Source: a virus | Virus record (IMG/VR): IMGVR_UViG_3300035670_000154 | Coordinates: 1 to 64,000 of that record | DNA length: 64,000 bases | Strand: one strand, 5' to 3' | Shown here: piece by piece, positions 8,169 through 64,000 of the stretch | Layout of the letters: the number at the start of each line of letters is the position of its first letter | Numbering within the stretch: position 1 is the stretch's first letter | Notes under the pieces: model-generated | Database searches by the model: none | Seen by the model: the letters and a program-made list of their open reading frames with translations, nothing else | What the model was told of the DNA's origin: nothing | Translations under genes and position numbers: made by a program

Positions 8169-8984
8169 ATGGTAGAGTTTTTAAAAGAAGGTGATAAATT
8201 TTTATGTACAAATGGGCATGGTTCTGTTTTTGGTGAAATTTTTATGCTAGAAGACGGTTTGTATTATTATTCTGATAATCACAATATAGGTGGATGTTAT
8301 ACATGGCATACACTAAAATGTATTCAAGAAAAACTATTAGAGTTAAATTCTTTTAAAAAACAAAAATATGGTTTTAATGACCATATGGAACCAAAACAGC
8401 ATGTAAAACCAATCAAAATTAAAGAGACACAAGATTTGGTGGTAAATTTTTTAGATGCAGAAAATGGTGATATAGTATGCAAAAATGATAATGGTAGTAT
8501 CATTGGCGTTATTTTAAAATCTCCACTTTCTGGATATTATGTTTATCTCATTTTAAATGAAAATATAAATATTGAAACACAAAAAATTATTGAAGATAAA
8601 ACAAATAAATTAAATGAAGAAAATAAGGATGAGATATCAAAAAACATTTCAAATGAATTAGAAAAAATGCAAAATGAAATAGAAAAAAATGAAGGAAGAA
8701 AAGATGACAAAGGGAAGGCTATGTTTTCTCTAATACCAGCACTTGCTGAGGCAGAGGTTGCAAAAGTATTAACTTTTGGAGCGGCTAAGTACGGTAGAGA
8801 CAACTGGCGTTTTTTAGAAGATTTAGAAATACGAACAATGGACGCAGCTTTAAGGCATATAAGTGAAACAAGACTAGGAAGAAAAACAGATAATGAAAGC
8901 GGATTACATCCAATAGCTCATGCTATTTGTGAGTTATTGTTTTTTTTAGAACATGAGCTTGACAAAAACAAAAAACAAGATTAA
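8169..8984 (+). CDS. dATP/dGTP diphosphohydrolase-domain protein with duplicated N-terminal module
   Basis: The C-terminal about 90 residues match the dATP/dGTP diphosphohydrolase family (DUF5664, dGTP_diPhyd_N): KAMFSLIPALAEAEVAKVLTFGA, KYGRDNWR, then MDAALRHISE and HPIAHAICELLFFLEHEL with the acidic/His residues expected of a MazG-like site. The N-terminal part is unusual: a motif around residues 12-40 (CTNGHGSVFGEIF..GLYYY) recurs at about 97-125 (CKNDNGSIIGVIL..GYYVY), followed by a Glu/Lys/Asn coiled-coil linker (about 140-178). It would remove purine dNTPs, in line with dut and thyA nearby. Confidence 0.75.
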   Translation: MVEFLKEGDKFLCTNGHGSVFGEIFMLEDGLYYYSDNHNIGGCYTWHTLKCIQEKLLELNSFKKQKYGFNDHMEPKQHVKPIKIKETQDLVVNFLDAENGDIVCKNDNGSIIGVILKSPLSGYYVYLILNENINIETQKIIEDKTNKLNEENKDEISKNISNELEKMQNEIEKNEGRKDDKGKAMFSLIPALAEAEVAKVLTFGAAKYGRDNWRFLEDLEIRTMDAALRHISETRLGRKTDNESGLHPIAHAICELLFFLEHELDKNKKQD

Positions 8985-52603: not shown

Positions 52604-53086
52604 TTAAAACCAACCACACAAATATCTTTTTGCAATTAAATGAACCTCATCGCCAGTTTCTTTAGCATCAAAAATAGCGCATTTATCGCCTTCTGAAGCC
52701 TCTGAAACATAAACAATTTTACTTCCATCCATAGGAAAAAGACTTCCTTTATATCCATAAAGTTGTTTTCCAATTACATATTGGCATTGCTCTAAAAGAT
52801 TGCCTACAGTTACATGCTTTTCAGTTTTTGATATGTCTATTGATAAGTTTTCATACCCACCTCTAAATGATACAAAACACGAAAAACATTCATCAACATG
52901 TCCGCTTTGATAAACAAAACTTCGATCTAATACATTTGGATAAGCAACAGAACCATCACTATAAACTATTTTAACTTTCTTGTCTTTATCTAATGACGCA
53001 AGTTTGCCAATTAACTCATATAAACGCAATGGCTCTACGTCATATTGATCTATCCTATCAAGCGCTCTCCATTGTTCTTCATTCAT
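52604..53086 (-). CDS. hypothetical protein, 160 aa
   Basis: Soluble protein of unknown family. Start at the second of two consecutive ATGs, six bases from AGGAG. Overlaps the pentapeptide gene's end. Confidence 0.65.
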   Translation of the reverse strand: MNEEQWRALDRIDQYDVEPLRLYELIGKLASLDKDKKVKIVYSDGSVAYPNVLDRSFVYQSGHVDECFSCFVSFRGGYENLSIDISKTEKHVTVGNLLEQCQYVIGKQLYGYKGSLFPMDGSKIVYVSEASEGDKCAIFDAKETGDEVHLIAKRYLCGWF

Positions 53087-54023
53087 CATTTTCTCCTATT
53101 GGCATCAAGCTAGATTCCTGCTCTTTTGTTAAGAAAAAACCATCTTCTGCTAAATCTTTTTTAAATTTATCGACATCACACGTCCCATTTGAAAAATAAA
53201 ACTCGCTTTTTAAATTAAATAGATCATCGCTTAGTGGTATCAATTCTTTTTTTACCAAAATACTGTTTATTTCATCGATTTGTTCTTTACTTAAATCCGC
53301 ATCAGACAAATCAGCCCTAGAAAAATCCGCATCTGACAAATCAGCACCAGACAAATCAGCACCAGACAAATCAGCATCAGACAAATCAGCACCAGACAGA
53401 CCTGCTTTAGATAAATTCGCTTTAGACAGATTCGCTTTAGACAGCTTTGCTTTATACAGATACGCACCAGACAAATCCGCCTTACTTAAATCCGCACAAC
53501 ACAAATCCGCCTTACTTAAATCCGCACAACACAAATCCGCCTTACTTAAATTCGCACCAGACAAATCCGCACCATACAAATTCGCACCAGATAAATTCGC
53601 ACCAGACAAATTAGCATATGACAAATCAGCACCACACAGACTTGCTTTAGATAAATTCGCTTTAGACAGATTCGCTTTAGACAGCTTTGCTTTATACAGA
53701 TACGCACCAGACAAATCAGCACCACGTAAATCAGCATATGACAAATCAGCACCACACAGACTTGCTTTAGATAAATTCGCTTTAGACAGATTCGCTTTAG
53801 ACAGCTTTGCTTTATACAGATACGCACCAGACAAATCAGCACCACGTAAATCAGCATCTGACAAATATGCACCACACAGATTTGCTTTAGATAAAGATAT
53901 TTTTTGCTTAACCGCCTCTTCTACTGTTAGTTTTATAGTATTGTTTTTACACTCAAATGAATATATGCTACTTCCTGTATACAAATTTTTGATTTCTAAC
54001 GAAATCACATTATTAACAGCCAT
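53079..54023 (-). CDS. pentapeptide-repeat protein
   Basis: 314 aa. Residues about 40-240 are a near-unbroken run of A(D/N)LSx pentapeptides, expected to form a right-handed square beta-helix. Units are arranged in longer blocks duplicated at DNA level. A non-repeat N-terminal domain (1-38) and a C-terminal region (about 241-314) flank it. Some family members mimic DNA and inhibit gyrase; for this one the function is unknown. Confidence 0.9.
   Translation of the reverse strand: MAVNNVISLEIKNLYTGSSIYSFECKNNTIKLTVEEAVKQKISLSKANLCGAYLSDADLRGADLSGAYLYKAKLSKANLSKANLSKASLCGADLSYADLRGADLSGAYLYKAKLSKANLSKANLSKASLCGADLSYANLSGANLSGANLYGADLSGANLSKADLCCADLSKADLCCADLSKADLSGAYLYKAKLSKANLSKANLSKAGLSGADLSDADLSGADLSGADLSDADFSRADLSDADLSKEQIDEINSILVKKELIPLSDDLFNLKSEFYFSNGTCDVDKFKKDLAEDGFFLTKEQESSLMPIGENDE
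53386..53885 (-). repeat. tandem long repeats within the pentapeptide gene
   Basis: A block of about 120 bases, containing the run AGATTCGCTTTAGACAGC and its flanks, occurs three times (around 53398-53465, 53638-53755, 53758-53875); the last two are almost identical over their full length. Short units between them vary. Recent unequal exchange or slippage is likely. Confidence 0.8.
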
Positions 54024-59076: not shown

Positions 59077-59084
59077 TTAATTTT

Positions 59085-59156
59085 ATCTCCATCGTATAAT
59101 GGATAATACAGCACTCTTCTAAAGTGCGGATGAAGGTTCGACTCATTCTGGAGATG
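59085..59156 (+). tRNA. tRNA-Arg (anticodon UCU)
   Basis: Acceptor ATCTCCA/TGGAGAT, D-stem GTAT/ATAC, anticodon stem GCACT/AGTGC with loop CTTCTAA (anticodon TCT), T-loop TTCGACT with one mismatch in its stem. No encoded CCA. Reads AGA/AGG; AGA is the main arginine codon of these genes. Confidence 0.88.
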
Positions 59157-59187
59157 TTTTTTTTATAAAAAATAATTTTGGAGTTAT

Positions 59188-59940
59188 ATGTTAAAGTTAA
59201 ATGGGGTTGAGATATGCCCCACAATTTTTAGTGATAACACATCACAGATATGGAAAATTCATGAGAGTTTGTTTGAAACAGCTTCTGAAATAGAATGGAT
59301 TTTTGGTGGAGACCAAGAGGTTTTTCATCTGTTTCAGTTGGCTATTCTTTGTAGGTCAAAAGGTGTTAAAAGTTTAAATCTTTTGACTAAATATTTGCCT
59401 TATGCTAGGCAGGATAAGCCTATTTCAAATGAAAGTACATTTGCATTACATGTTTTTTCAAAAATAATCAATCAAATAAATTTTGATTCGATTTTTTGTT
59501 ATGATCCACATTCTGACATTGCAAAAAAGCTAATTAATAATTTATTTTGTATTGATGTGGGAAGTCATGTTTATAGATTTTTTACAGAAAACAATTATGA
59601 TGTTGTTTTGTACCCAGACTTAGGAGCAAAAACAAGATATTCTGAGCTTTATGGGCTTCCATATATTTACGCAGACAAAAAGCGAGATCAGCTTACTGGC
59701 AATATTGAAGGTCTTGATGTTATTGGTGATTGCGATGGTAAGACTGTTCTTATTGTTGATGATATATGTGATGGAGGAGGCACGTTTATAATTGCTGCAA
59801 AGGAGCTTTATGATAAAGGAGCTATTGATGTTGGTCTTTTTGTTTCTCATGGCATTTTTTCAAAAGGAAAAGAGGTTTTATATAACGCAGGAATAAACAA
59901 AGTTTTTAGTTTAAATAATTTAGGAGATAAAAATGCTTAA
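59188..59940 (+). CDS. PRPP synthetase-like protein (candidate ADP-ribose pyrophosphokinase, Adps-like)
   Basis: 250 aa, shorter than the about 310 aa of cellular Prs. Shows the Prs fold: IFGGDQEVFHLF, YLPYARQDKP (ATP loop), CYDPHSD and the PRPP-type loop VLIVDDICDGGGTF. Cellular Prs makes PRPP. In phage NARP1 systems the homologue Adps instead pyrophosphorylates ADP-ribose for NAD+ rebuilding. Overlaps the NAMPT-like gene by eight bases, so the two are made together. Sequence alone does not separate the two activities. Confidence 0.82.
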   Translation: MLKLNGVEICPTIFSDNTSQIWKIHESLFETASEIEWIFGGDQEVFHLFQLAILCRSKGVKSLNLLTKYLPYARQDKPISNESTFALHVFSKIINQINFDSIFCYDPHSDIAKKLINNLFCIDVGSHVYRFFTENNYDVVLYPDLGAKTRYSELYGLPYIYADKKRDQLTGNIEGLDVIGDCDGKTVLIVDDICDGGGTFIIAAKELYDKGAIDVGLFVSHGIFSKGKEVLYNAGINKVFSLNNLGDKNA

Positions 59941-61369
59941 GCTTTTGCCGCTTATTTGTTGTGATGGATATAAACTTGAACATAGAAAGCAGTATCCAGA
60001 ATCAACAGAAATTATTTATTCAACATGGACTCCAAGATTTTCTAAAAAAGAAGGGTTTGATGATGTTGTTGTATTTGGGATTCAATACGCAATAAAAAAG
60101 GTTCATGATTATTTTGACGAGTATTTTTTTAAAAAAAATATAGATGATATTTTAAAAGAATACGCTTCAATAATGGAGTGTTATGGGGTTTATGAAATAG
60201 AAACTGATCATATCAGGAATCTTCATAAGATTGGTTTTTTACCAATAAAAATATCATCCGTTTATGAGGGTGCTGTTGTAAAGTTTAAAACACCAGTTGT
60301 TACAATAGAAAATACATTAGATGAGTTTTTTTGGATAACAAATTTTTTAGAAACTTTTTTAAGCTGTGAACTCTGGCCAGCATCAACAGCCGCAACAATA
60401 GCGCTTAAGTACAAAAAAATATTAAAGAAATACGCAAAAAAAACATCCTCATGCGAAGGTTTTGTCGATATTCAAGCCCATGATTTTTCAATGAGAGGGC
60501 TTGAAGGAATTGAGGCTACTATTGGAATTGGGCTTGGTCATTTATCTTCATTTAAAGGAACTGATACAATAACAGCAATTCAAGGCGCTATGTATTATTA
60601 CAATCAAAAAGGTTTTATTGCTGGAACTGTCCCTGCAACAGAACATTCTATTCAGTCTTCATACGGAGACGATTTAAAATATTTCAAAAAAATGTTGGAT
60701 ATATACAAAAAAGGAATAGTGTCTATCGTATCTGACGGGTATGATTATTTTAATGTTTTGACTAATGTGTTGCCAAAAATAAGGAAAGAGATTCTTTCAA
60801 GGGATGGTAAGGTGGTTATACGACCAGACAGTGGAGACCCAGTTAAAATAATATGCGGAGACAAAGACGGAAAAACAATAGAAGAGCAAAAAGGTTCTAT
60901 TGAAATTTTGTATGAAATTTTTGGAGGATTTATCAATGAAAAGGGATATAAAGAGCTTGATCCTCATATAGGTTTAATATATGGCGACTCAATTACTTTG
61001 AACAGGTGTGAAGAAATTTGCCAAAAACTTGCTGAAAAAGGTTTTGCATCAACAAATGTTGTTTTTGGTGTTGGTAGTTATAGCTATCAGTATAATACTA
61101 GGGACAGTTTCGGTTTCGCATTAAAATCAACTGCCAACTCTGTTAGCGGAAAAGAGTTTGCTTTATTTAAAGACCCAAAAACAGACGATGGCATGAAAAA
61201 ATCTCAAAAAGGTAGGGTTTTTGTTGATGCTGATTTTTCTTGGTCTGACGGCTATACAAGTAAAAATATGCCAGAAAATAATATGTTAAAGCCAATTTAT
61301 ATTGACGGTAAATTTTTGATTGAAACAAGCCTAGAGGATGTTAGAAAAAGACTAGATAAGATAGCTTAA
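59933..61369 (+). CDS. NAMPT-like phosphoribosyltransferase (candidate Namat)
   Basis: 478 aa, full length. NAMPT motifs: GYKLEHRKQYPESTEIIYST, a WPASTAATIA stretch, DFSMRGLEG, GTDTITAIQGA, GTVPATEHS, IVSDGYDYF, IRPDSGDPVKI and YGDSITLNR. Cellular NAMPT makes NMN from nicotinamide and PRPP. In NARP1 the homologue Namat joins nicotinamide to activated ADP-ribose to give NAD+ in one step. No NMN adenylyltransferase is visible in the window, which fits the one-step route better. AGGAGATAAAA precedes the ATG. Confidence 0.9.
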   Translation: MLKLLPLICCDGYKLEHRKQYPESTEIIYSTWTPRFSKKEGFDDVVVFGIQYAIKKVHDYFDEYFFKKNIDDILKEYASIMECYGVYEIETDHIRNLHKIGFLPIKISSVYEGAVVKFKTPVVTIENTLDEFFWITNFLETFLSCELWPASTAATIALKYKKILKKYAKKTSSCEGFVDIQAHDFSMRGLEGIEATIGIGLGHLSSFKGTDTITAIQGAMYYYNQKGFIAGTVPATEHSIQSSYGDDLKYFKKMLDIYKKGIVSIVSDGYDYFNVLTNVLPKIRKEILSRDGKVVIRPDSGDPVKIICGDKDGKTIEEQKGSIEILYEIFGGFINEKGYKELDPHIGLIYGDSITLNRCEEICQKLAEKGFASTNVVFGVGSYSYQYNTRDSFGFALKSTANSVSGKEFALFKDPKTDDGMKKSQKGRVFVDADFSWSDGYTSKNMPENNMLKPIYIDGKFLIETSLEDVRKRLDKIA

Positions 61370-62034: not shown

Positions 62035-62163
62035 TTAAGCGTATATCAGTGGTAGATAATATGGCAGAGCCTAAATAATGGAATTTTATAACTGAAATAA
62101 ATATCCTTTCAGCTCTTTTTAGGATTTCGCGATAAGGTCGATGGTTCAAATCCATTCGCTTAA
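62035..62163 (+). tRNA. tRNA-like gene with 58-nt insertion in the anticodon loop
   Basis: Acceptor TTAAGCG (62035-62041) pairs perfectly with CGCTTAA (62157-62163); D-stem TATC/GATA with loop AGTGGTA; T-stem GATGG/CCATT with TTCAAAT. An anticodon stem TATGG (62060-62064) / CGATA (62130-62134) has one mismatch at the expected distances, but its loop is 65 bases instead of 7. The insertion can form AGAGC/GCTCT or CTGAAA/TTTCAG. Too short for a known self-splicing intron, so this may be a decayed tRNA, a tRNA mimic or an RNA with an unknown processing route. Amino-acid identity cannot be assigned. Confidence 0.6.
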
Positions 62164-62221: not shown

Positions 62222-62299
62222 ATGTTTTTAGCTAATTTAGTTTTCTTTTTAATTTGTTTGTATTTTGGTAAAAAAATAAGTGATAGGTTAGATAGATGA
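62222..62299 (+). CDS. 25-aa membrane peptide
   Basis: ATG behind TTTGGAGCTTT; product MFLANLVFFLICLYFGKKIS... is a single membrane segment with a basic end. Converges on and slightly overlaps the RuvC-like gene. Micro-gene of unknown role. Confidence 0.45.
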   Translation: MFLANLVFFLICLYFGKKISDRLDR

Positions 62300-62728
62300 T
62301 ATTCTATGGGCGTTTATTGATAAAACAGCCATTGCAGAATCTCTCTCGTGTGGATTAGACTGTTTAGACCATCCTGTTATTTGATTAAAGGCTTTAGAAT
62401 CGATTTTAGAGCCTTTTTTCTTTGCTGATACACCAAAATGCTCAATCTTGTTTTTAATGGCGTATTCCTCTATTAAGTGGCTCCAAGCATCAATTGTTCC
62501 AACTTTTCTTGCTATACTCATAGCTGCTGCTTTTGATTGTGTTCCTACAGCATTGTACATAAAGCCAATTTTTCTACTATCCTCAAAAACAATTATATCT
62601 GGCTTTTCTTTAGGTAAAAGAATAACCACCAAATCCAATGGATTAGTGGTTTGAAGATCAACTAGCTTTCCGTTTATGAAAATTGAAACACCAGTTTTTA
62701 AACCAGGGTCTATTCCTATTGTTCTGAT
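62288..62728 (-). CDS. RuvC-like Holliday junction resolvase, non-ATG start
   Basis: 146 aa if read from ATC at 62728: RTIGIDPGLKTGVSIF carries the first catalytic Asp, PDIIVFEDSR the Glu, and NPHERDSAMAVLS the last Asp of RuvC/RNase H-fold resolvases. No ATG, GTG or TTG precedes the conserved motif in frame. GGAG sits seven bases before the ATC, just where ATG would be expected. Alternatively a -1 slip on A8 in the upstream gene would fuse the two. Resolves branched DNA before packaging. Confidence 0.75.
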   Translation of the reverse strand: MRTIGIDPGLKTGVSIFINGKLVDLQTTNPLDLVVILLPKEKPDIIVFEDSRKIGFMYNAVGTQSKAAAMSIARKVGTIDAWSHLIEEYAIKNKIEHFGVSAKKKGSKIDSKAFNQITGWSKQSNPHERDSAMAVLSINAHRISSI

Positions 62729-62979
62729 TTTTTTTCTCCAATAATTTTTATTGTATCTATTTGATCATGGCTTTCGTTATGAACATCAATCAAACCTTTT
62801 GAGAAAATATAATCAACTACAATCACATCGCCTTTTTTACCATAATAGCAATCTTCTTTTAAGGTCAATTTCTCTTGGAAACAAAATGTACCAAGAGCAA
62901 TAATTGTCCATTCAGTAATCTCAGCCTCTATTCCCAAGTATGTTTTAGCAGTTTCTGATATAGCAATTTCTTCACACAT
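62716..62979 (-). CDS. hypothetical protein, 87 aa
   Basis: Small beta-rich protein (MCEEIAISETAKTYLGIEAE...). Start at 62979 or 62985, both behind AAGGA. Ends GEKKSEQ within the run of eight A that also precedes the RuvC frame. Confidence 0.6.
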   Translation of the reverse strand: MCEEIAISETAKTYLGIEAEITEWTIIALGTFCFQEKLTLKEDCYYGKKGDVIVVDYIFSKGLIDVHNESHDQIDTIKIIGEKKSEQ

Positions 62980-63792: not shown

Positions 63793-64000
63793 TTATTTTT
63801 GTAAATGTGTTTTATACATTTCAGAAAAAAGACTTAATAAATCACTTTCTAAGTATTCCATATCAGTAAATTTTTCAATATAGAACTCCTCTTTTTCTTT
63901 TATAAAAGCCACAATCTCTTTTTCTTCAAACAAATCCAAAATCATTGTTTGAATGTTTGTTTGTTGTGCTTTAACACCCAGATTAAAAAATATATAAATA
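63793..64000 (-). CDS. partial hypothetical protein (C-terminal 68 codons)
   Basis: Minus-strand frame open from the window edge to a TAA at 63793-63795, coding an acidic helical end (FEEKEIVAFIKEKEEFYIEK, ending SEMYKTHLQK). The start is outside the window. Unknown family. Confidence 0.55.
   Translation of the reverse strand, partial: IYIFFNLGVKAQQTNIQTMILDLFEEKEIVAFIKEKEEFYIEKFTDMEYLESDLLSLFSEMYKTHLQK

Follow-up and report, generated by a model that had tools for sequence, protein, structure and literature searches.

A very probable NARP1-type NAD+ rebuilding cassette in a divergent contractile-tail phage

The window analysed here is a stretch of 64,000 nucleotides that runs from base 1 to base 64000 of a virus record 72,164 bases long (IMG/VR record IMGVR_UViG_3300035670_000154). 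The whole contig carries the gene set of a contractile-tail phage (myophage), including tail sheath, baseplate wedge, tape measure, portal and terminase. The same contig also encodes a ribonucleotide reductase, a thymidylate synthase, a DnaC-like loader and a Sak4-like annealing protein. The nearest terminases found share about 32-36% identity with that of this phage, which places it far from described lineages. The features of the locus under study, in which two overlapping genes are flanked by tRNA genes, are as follows.

59084..59157, + strand: tRNA-Arg (tct), directly 5' of the pair (ARAGORN; Rfam 53 bits)
59188..59940, + strand: adps, predicted ADP-ribose pyrophosphate synthetase, Prs-like, 250 aa, ATG start (ORF, phrog_619, tree, loop)
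59758..59784, + strand: codons of the Adps loop DDICDGGGT, residues 191-199, at the site of the Prs ribose-phosphate-binding loop (alignment)
59933..59940, + strand: 8-base overlap of adps and namat (ORF coordinates and sequence)
59933..61369, + strand: namat, predicted nicotinamide ADP-ribose transferase, NAMPT-like, 478 aa, ATG start (ORF, phrog_448, tree, motif)
60044..60049, + strand: codons of Namat K38-K39, at the selectivity-clamp loop position (Arg40-Val41 in SPbetaL1; alignment)
61073..61105, + strand: codons of the Namat clamp-helix motif GSYSYQYNTRD, residues 381-391 (alignment; motif definition from PMC12774641)
61376..61449, + strand: tRNA-Met (cat), 3' of the pair, 7 bases beyond the namat stop (ARAGORN; Rfam 75 bits)

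A preliminary description of this DNA had reported a Prs-like gene overlapping a full-length NAMPT-like gene by eight bases, and the same coordinates and shared bases were recovered here. On inspection of the sequence, a Shine-Dalgarno-like GGAG precedes the ATG of each gene, and the overlap and common strand agree with a single predicted operon. Adps matches phrog_619 (ribose-phosphate pyrophosphokinase; 7e-61) and the Pfam families Pribosyl_synth/Pribosyltran, while Namat matches phrog_448 (nicotinamide phosphoribosyl transferase; 4e-172) and NAPRTase/NAMPT_N. Given these PHROG and Pfam matches, both genes are real homologues and not chance open reading frames. PADLOC matches on Adps were weak, probably reflect other phosphoribosyltransferase folds and were discarded.

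Adps was placed in a tree of 55 rows that included 11 cellular Prs, ten of them from bacterial genomes also carrying a relative of the query Adps. Archaeal Prs was represented by a partial sequence stretch, and NrsA of phage ICP1 was omitted as its frame is broken in the isolate used. The query falls within a clade with the Adps of SPbetaL1 and Bas63, separated from the 11 cellular Prs by a branch with 100/100 support, and its catalytic residues are invariant across 40 aligned sequences. The loop at the ribose-phosphate-binding site reads DDMIDTAGT or a close variant in cellular Prs, whereas that of the query, DDICDGGGT, is of the Bas63 type (DDICDGGxT) and fails the canonical ribose-5-phosphate pattern DD.[IV][DS]T[AG]G[TS] by having Gly (G196) for Thr. 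This Thr is present in 11/11 cellular Prs, and it is missing from every Adps-type protein in which the site could be scored. Conservation of DDICDG within the collected Adps set is partly circular, given that this peptide was one of the six search patterns. In independent checks, Bas63 and Thibault have the same loop as the query, and the Thr site is occupied by Phe in SPbetaL1, Tyr in P100 and vBSP-A2, and Arg in KKP_3916.

In Prs, the loop Thr helps to bind the 5'-phosphate of ribose-5-phosphate, and its replacement in Adps would presumably open space for the ADP moiety of ADP-ribose. The contrast between Gly, Tyr, Phe or Arg and the Thr of cellular Prs separates both enzyme types in the set examined, and may help to classify many 'Prs plus NAMPT' pairs. 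The AlphaFold2 model of Adps (pLDDT 92) gave PDB matches that, among those listed, were all PRPP synthetases, as expected since no Adps structure has been solved (PMC12774641). The short length of the Prs-like protein (250 aa), which had been taken as support for the NARP1 reading in the preliminary description, proved not to be diagnostic, because related Adps, as delimited in this analysis, range in length from about 253 to 316 aa.

The second protein is closer to characterised Namat than to NAMPT in sequence, tree and fold. The best PDB sequence match in a phmmer search was SPbetaL1 Namat (9W5X/9W5W; 527 bits, against about 194 for mammalian NAMPT), and aligned identity was 52% to SPbetaL1 Namat vs 32% to rat NAMPT. 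Both PDB entries are Namat (PMC12774641), and their sequence was tied to phage SPbetaL1 by a 100% tblastn match. The Namat/NAMPT tree had 57 rows, and the query clade in it includes SPbetaL1 and Bas63 together with further sequences of paired genes from phages and bacteria. The branch that splits this clade from rat NAMPT and the phage and gammaproteobacterial NAMPTs has a length of 1.76 and 100/100 support. SPbetaL1 and Bas63 bracket the query in both the Namat and the Adps trees, with long end branches for the query (0.99 and 0.76 in the Namat/NAMPT and Adps/Prs trees, respectively). Clear grouping with cellular Prs and NAMPT had been named beforehand as the outcome that would speak against a NARP1 pair, and the opposite was seen, with 100/100 separation in both trees. 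The AlphaFold2 model of Namat (pLDDT 92) agrees with this placement: the top seven foldseek matches were SPbetaL1 Namat chains (TM 0.93-0.94), followed by HdNadV and then human and mouse NAMPT. Alignment to SPbetaL1 showed that the NMN-site residues listed in PMC12774641 for nicotinamide, ribose and phosphate contacts are all kept (D11, Y13, F185, S186, R188, D211, A235, R297, D299, G351, D352, S382 and R390), and that the active-site His (H238) is invariant.

Donor selectivity in Namat has been linked to a clamp, whose helix (SCH) carries the signature GSX-phi-X-phi-X-phi-TRD, in which positions 3 and 7 are aromatic (PMC12774641). The query has this signature as GSYSYQYNTRD at residues 381-391, and the adenine-clamp positions are kept as Y383 (Phe in SPbetaL1), Y387, T389 and D391. 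The signature was absent from HdNadV (GAQTYQRNTRD) and from the canonical NAMPTs examined (GGGLLQKLTRD in rat). In the clamp loop (SCL), the stacking residue is Arg, or Lys or Tyr with the next residue stacking, as with Trp in Bas63 (PMC12774641). The query has Lys-Lys (K38-K39) where SPbetaL1 has Arg-Val, with a stacking Arg, and Bas63 has Lys-Trp. K38 is the allowed Lys option and K39 is non-aromatic, so that the published rule covers this loop only in part. In SPbetaL1 Namat, R40A/F392G is reported to cost NAD+ formation while sparing that of NMN.

HdNadV, encoded on the Haemophilus ducreyi plasmid pNAD1 (9KE8/9KEO), serves as a control for these marks. It falls inside the Namat clade of the tree and shares its fold and 46% identity with the query Namat, yet it makes NMN in E. 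coli and is used in NMN production (PMC7384224). Membership of the clade alone is therefore no proof of the use of ADP-ribose pyrophosphate (ADPR-PP). HdNadV differs from the query in its degenerate clamp motif, which lacks both clamp aromatics in the alignment, and in its missing partner, as no Prs-like gene accompanies it on pNAD1. Since the query has both, the clamp aromatics and the Adps partner are the informative marks. This result may also help to sort 'Prs plus NAMPT' pairs, for which Namat-clade membership is insufficient by itself.

Among described systems, the NARP1 of the Bacillus phage SPbetaL1 resembles the query in gene order with overlap, folds, catalytic residues and clamp-helix motif. 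It differs in sequence (31% identity for Adps, 52% for Namat), in the Adps loop (DDLSSFGGT vs DDICDGGGT) and in the clamp loop (Arg-Val vs Lys-Lys). Bas63 (Escherichia phage JohannRWettstein) has the same gene order, the Adps loop DDICDGGRT and the Namat motif GSYTYQYMTRD, but its Namat is about 590 aa with insertions, and identity to the query is 45% for Namat and 31% for Adps. The NrsAB pair of Vibrio phage ICP1 is homologous to the query pair, with about 43% Namat identity, although its open frames were interrupted in the isolate examined by tblastn. Higher NAD+ has been reported with NrsAB in infected hosts carrying the Nezha defence (PMC11559045). Canonical salvage by NAMPT and PRPP synthetase uses the same chemistry as NARP1 with a smaller donor; its NAMPT has FGxGGxLLQ, without aromatics, at the clamp-helix position, its Prs has the loop DDMIDTAGT, and both stand 100/100 apart from the query clades.

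A Namat-like frame was found within 6 kb of the Adps relative at 79/80 viral loci, downstream and on the same strand in 78, and many of these pairs overlap or abut as in the query. Most of 80 bacterial loci contain both genes, sometimes several kilobases apart. In many Flavobacteriaceae chromosomes (loci L089-L162), Adps lies several kilobases from a Namat or has no visible Namat, indicating that linkage of the two genes can be loose in bacteria. In a separate observation, the first half of phrog_12872 (547 positions) matches Adps and its last third matches Namat, a pattern suggestive of Adps-Namat fusions in some phages. A relative of the second gene occurs in about 1,900 of 50,697 phage records, a figure that counts in canonical NAMPTs. 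Searches of viral contigs with exact short peptide patterns returned no relative of the window Namat or its DnaC-like neighbour, a result that is not evidence of absence. A RyDEP/RyR-domain partner, which adjoins NARP1 in phage DyoEdafos (PMC13232231), was not found, and the control for this family was silent too.

On phage infection, bacterial defences carrying TIR, SIR2 or SEFIR domains cleave NAD+ to nicotinamide plus ADP-ribose. Under the NARP1 mechanism, for which the original paper is said to be that of Osterman et al. in 2024, Adps would transfer pyrophosphate from ATP onto ADP-ribose, yielding ADPR-PP. Namat would then join ADPR-PP and nicotinamide directly into NAD+, without NMN or an NMN adenylyltransferase. 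The phage would thereby reverse the NAD+ starvation imposed by the defence and complete its own infection cycle. The preliminary description had proposed a NARP1-like pair and had noted that no NMN adenylyltransferase was visible. Both points are supported: a search of the 72-kb record, possibly a fragment, found no NMN adenylyltransferase-type domain (PF01467), with positive controls in 14/14 cases, and the pair is further backed by the trees, the clamp helix, the fold comparison and the gene order, with the clamp loop as the feature that departs. Nudix hydrolases and the Nudix domain were also sought in the phage contig, and none was found.

Judged from sequence, the adps-namat pair is very probably a NARP1 cassette, and a genuine, divergent yet otherwise ordinary example of a system that is already known, characterised and widespread. 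Its substrate choice, NAD+ synthesis and counter-defence role are inferred by analogy with SPbetaL1, Bas63 and ICP1 (PMC12774641; PMC11559045). The cassette comes from a phage lineage without a near relative in the collections searched, and thereby broadens the range over which NAD+ rebuilding is known as a counter-defence.

Several other readings of the pair were weighed. In ordinary salvage, the first enzyme would convert ribose-5-phosphate to PRPP, the second would form NMN from PRPP and nicotinamide, and a host NMN adenylyltransferase would complete NAD+. This is very improbable for the query: neither protein groups with cellular Prs or canonical NAMPT (100/100), the clamp aromatics that HdNadV lacks are present, and DDICDGGGT stands in place of the Prs loop DDMIDTAGT, even though the two enzymes share the Prs and NAMPT folds, HdNadV of the same clade makes NMN, and a characterised Namat uses PRPP in vitro with about half the NMN-forming activity of human NAMPT (PMC12774641). 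A departure of another kind would be a fast-evolving Namat whose Lys-Lys loop has shifted its donor preference, either using ADPR-PP about as readily as PRPP or accepting a modified ADP-ribose from a new defence; this is a decidedly improbable variant.

A NARP1-type pair may also serve the general supply of NAD+ during infection and not anti-defence, an unlikely reading that nonetheless draws on the presence of ribonucleotide reductase and thymidylate synthase in this phage and of NARP1 pairs on bacterial chromosomes (loci studied here; PMC12774641). However, the nucleotide genes cluster far from the pair, at positions 10-17 kb, and NARP1-type genes are active as counter-defence in tested phages (PMC11559045; PMC12774641). 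Decay or inactivity of the cassette, to which the long end branches of the query in both trees might point, is extremely improbable with intact frames, full conservation of catalytic residues and two confident models (pLDDT 92).

Further features were observed elsewhere in the window. At 62037-62163, 3' of a tRNA-Pro, a tRNA-like 5' half and a T-arm/acceptor half are separated by extra bases. This is possibly a broken or interrupted tRNA gene, and no clean tRNA was called there by Rfam or by ARAGORN with introns allowed. At 62288-62764 on the - strand, a frame of up to 158 aa with TIGIDPGLKTGV resembles a small RuvC-type nuclease, and the listed TTG start would exclude this motif. At 8169-8981 lies a dATP/dGTP pyrophosphohydrolase domain (PF18909), a type known from modified-base phages; a PurZ-like protein was sought in the phage contig and none was found. 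Finally, a 314-aa pentapeptide-repeat protein (PF00805; 4e-85) is encoded at 53079-54023 on the - strand and is possibly a DNA mimic.
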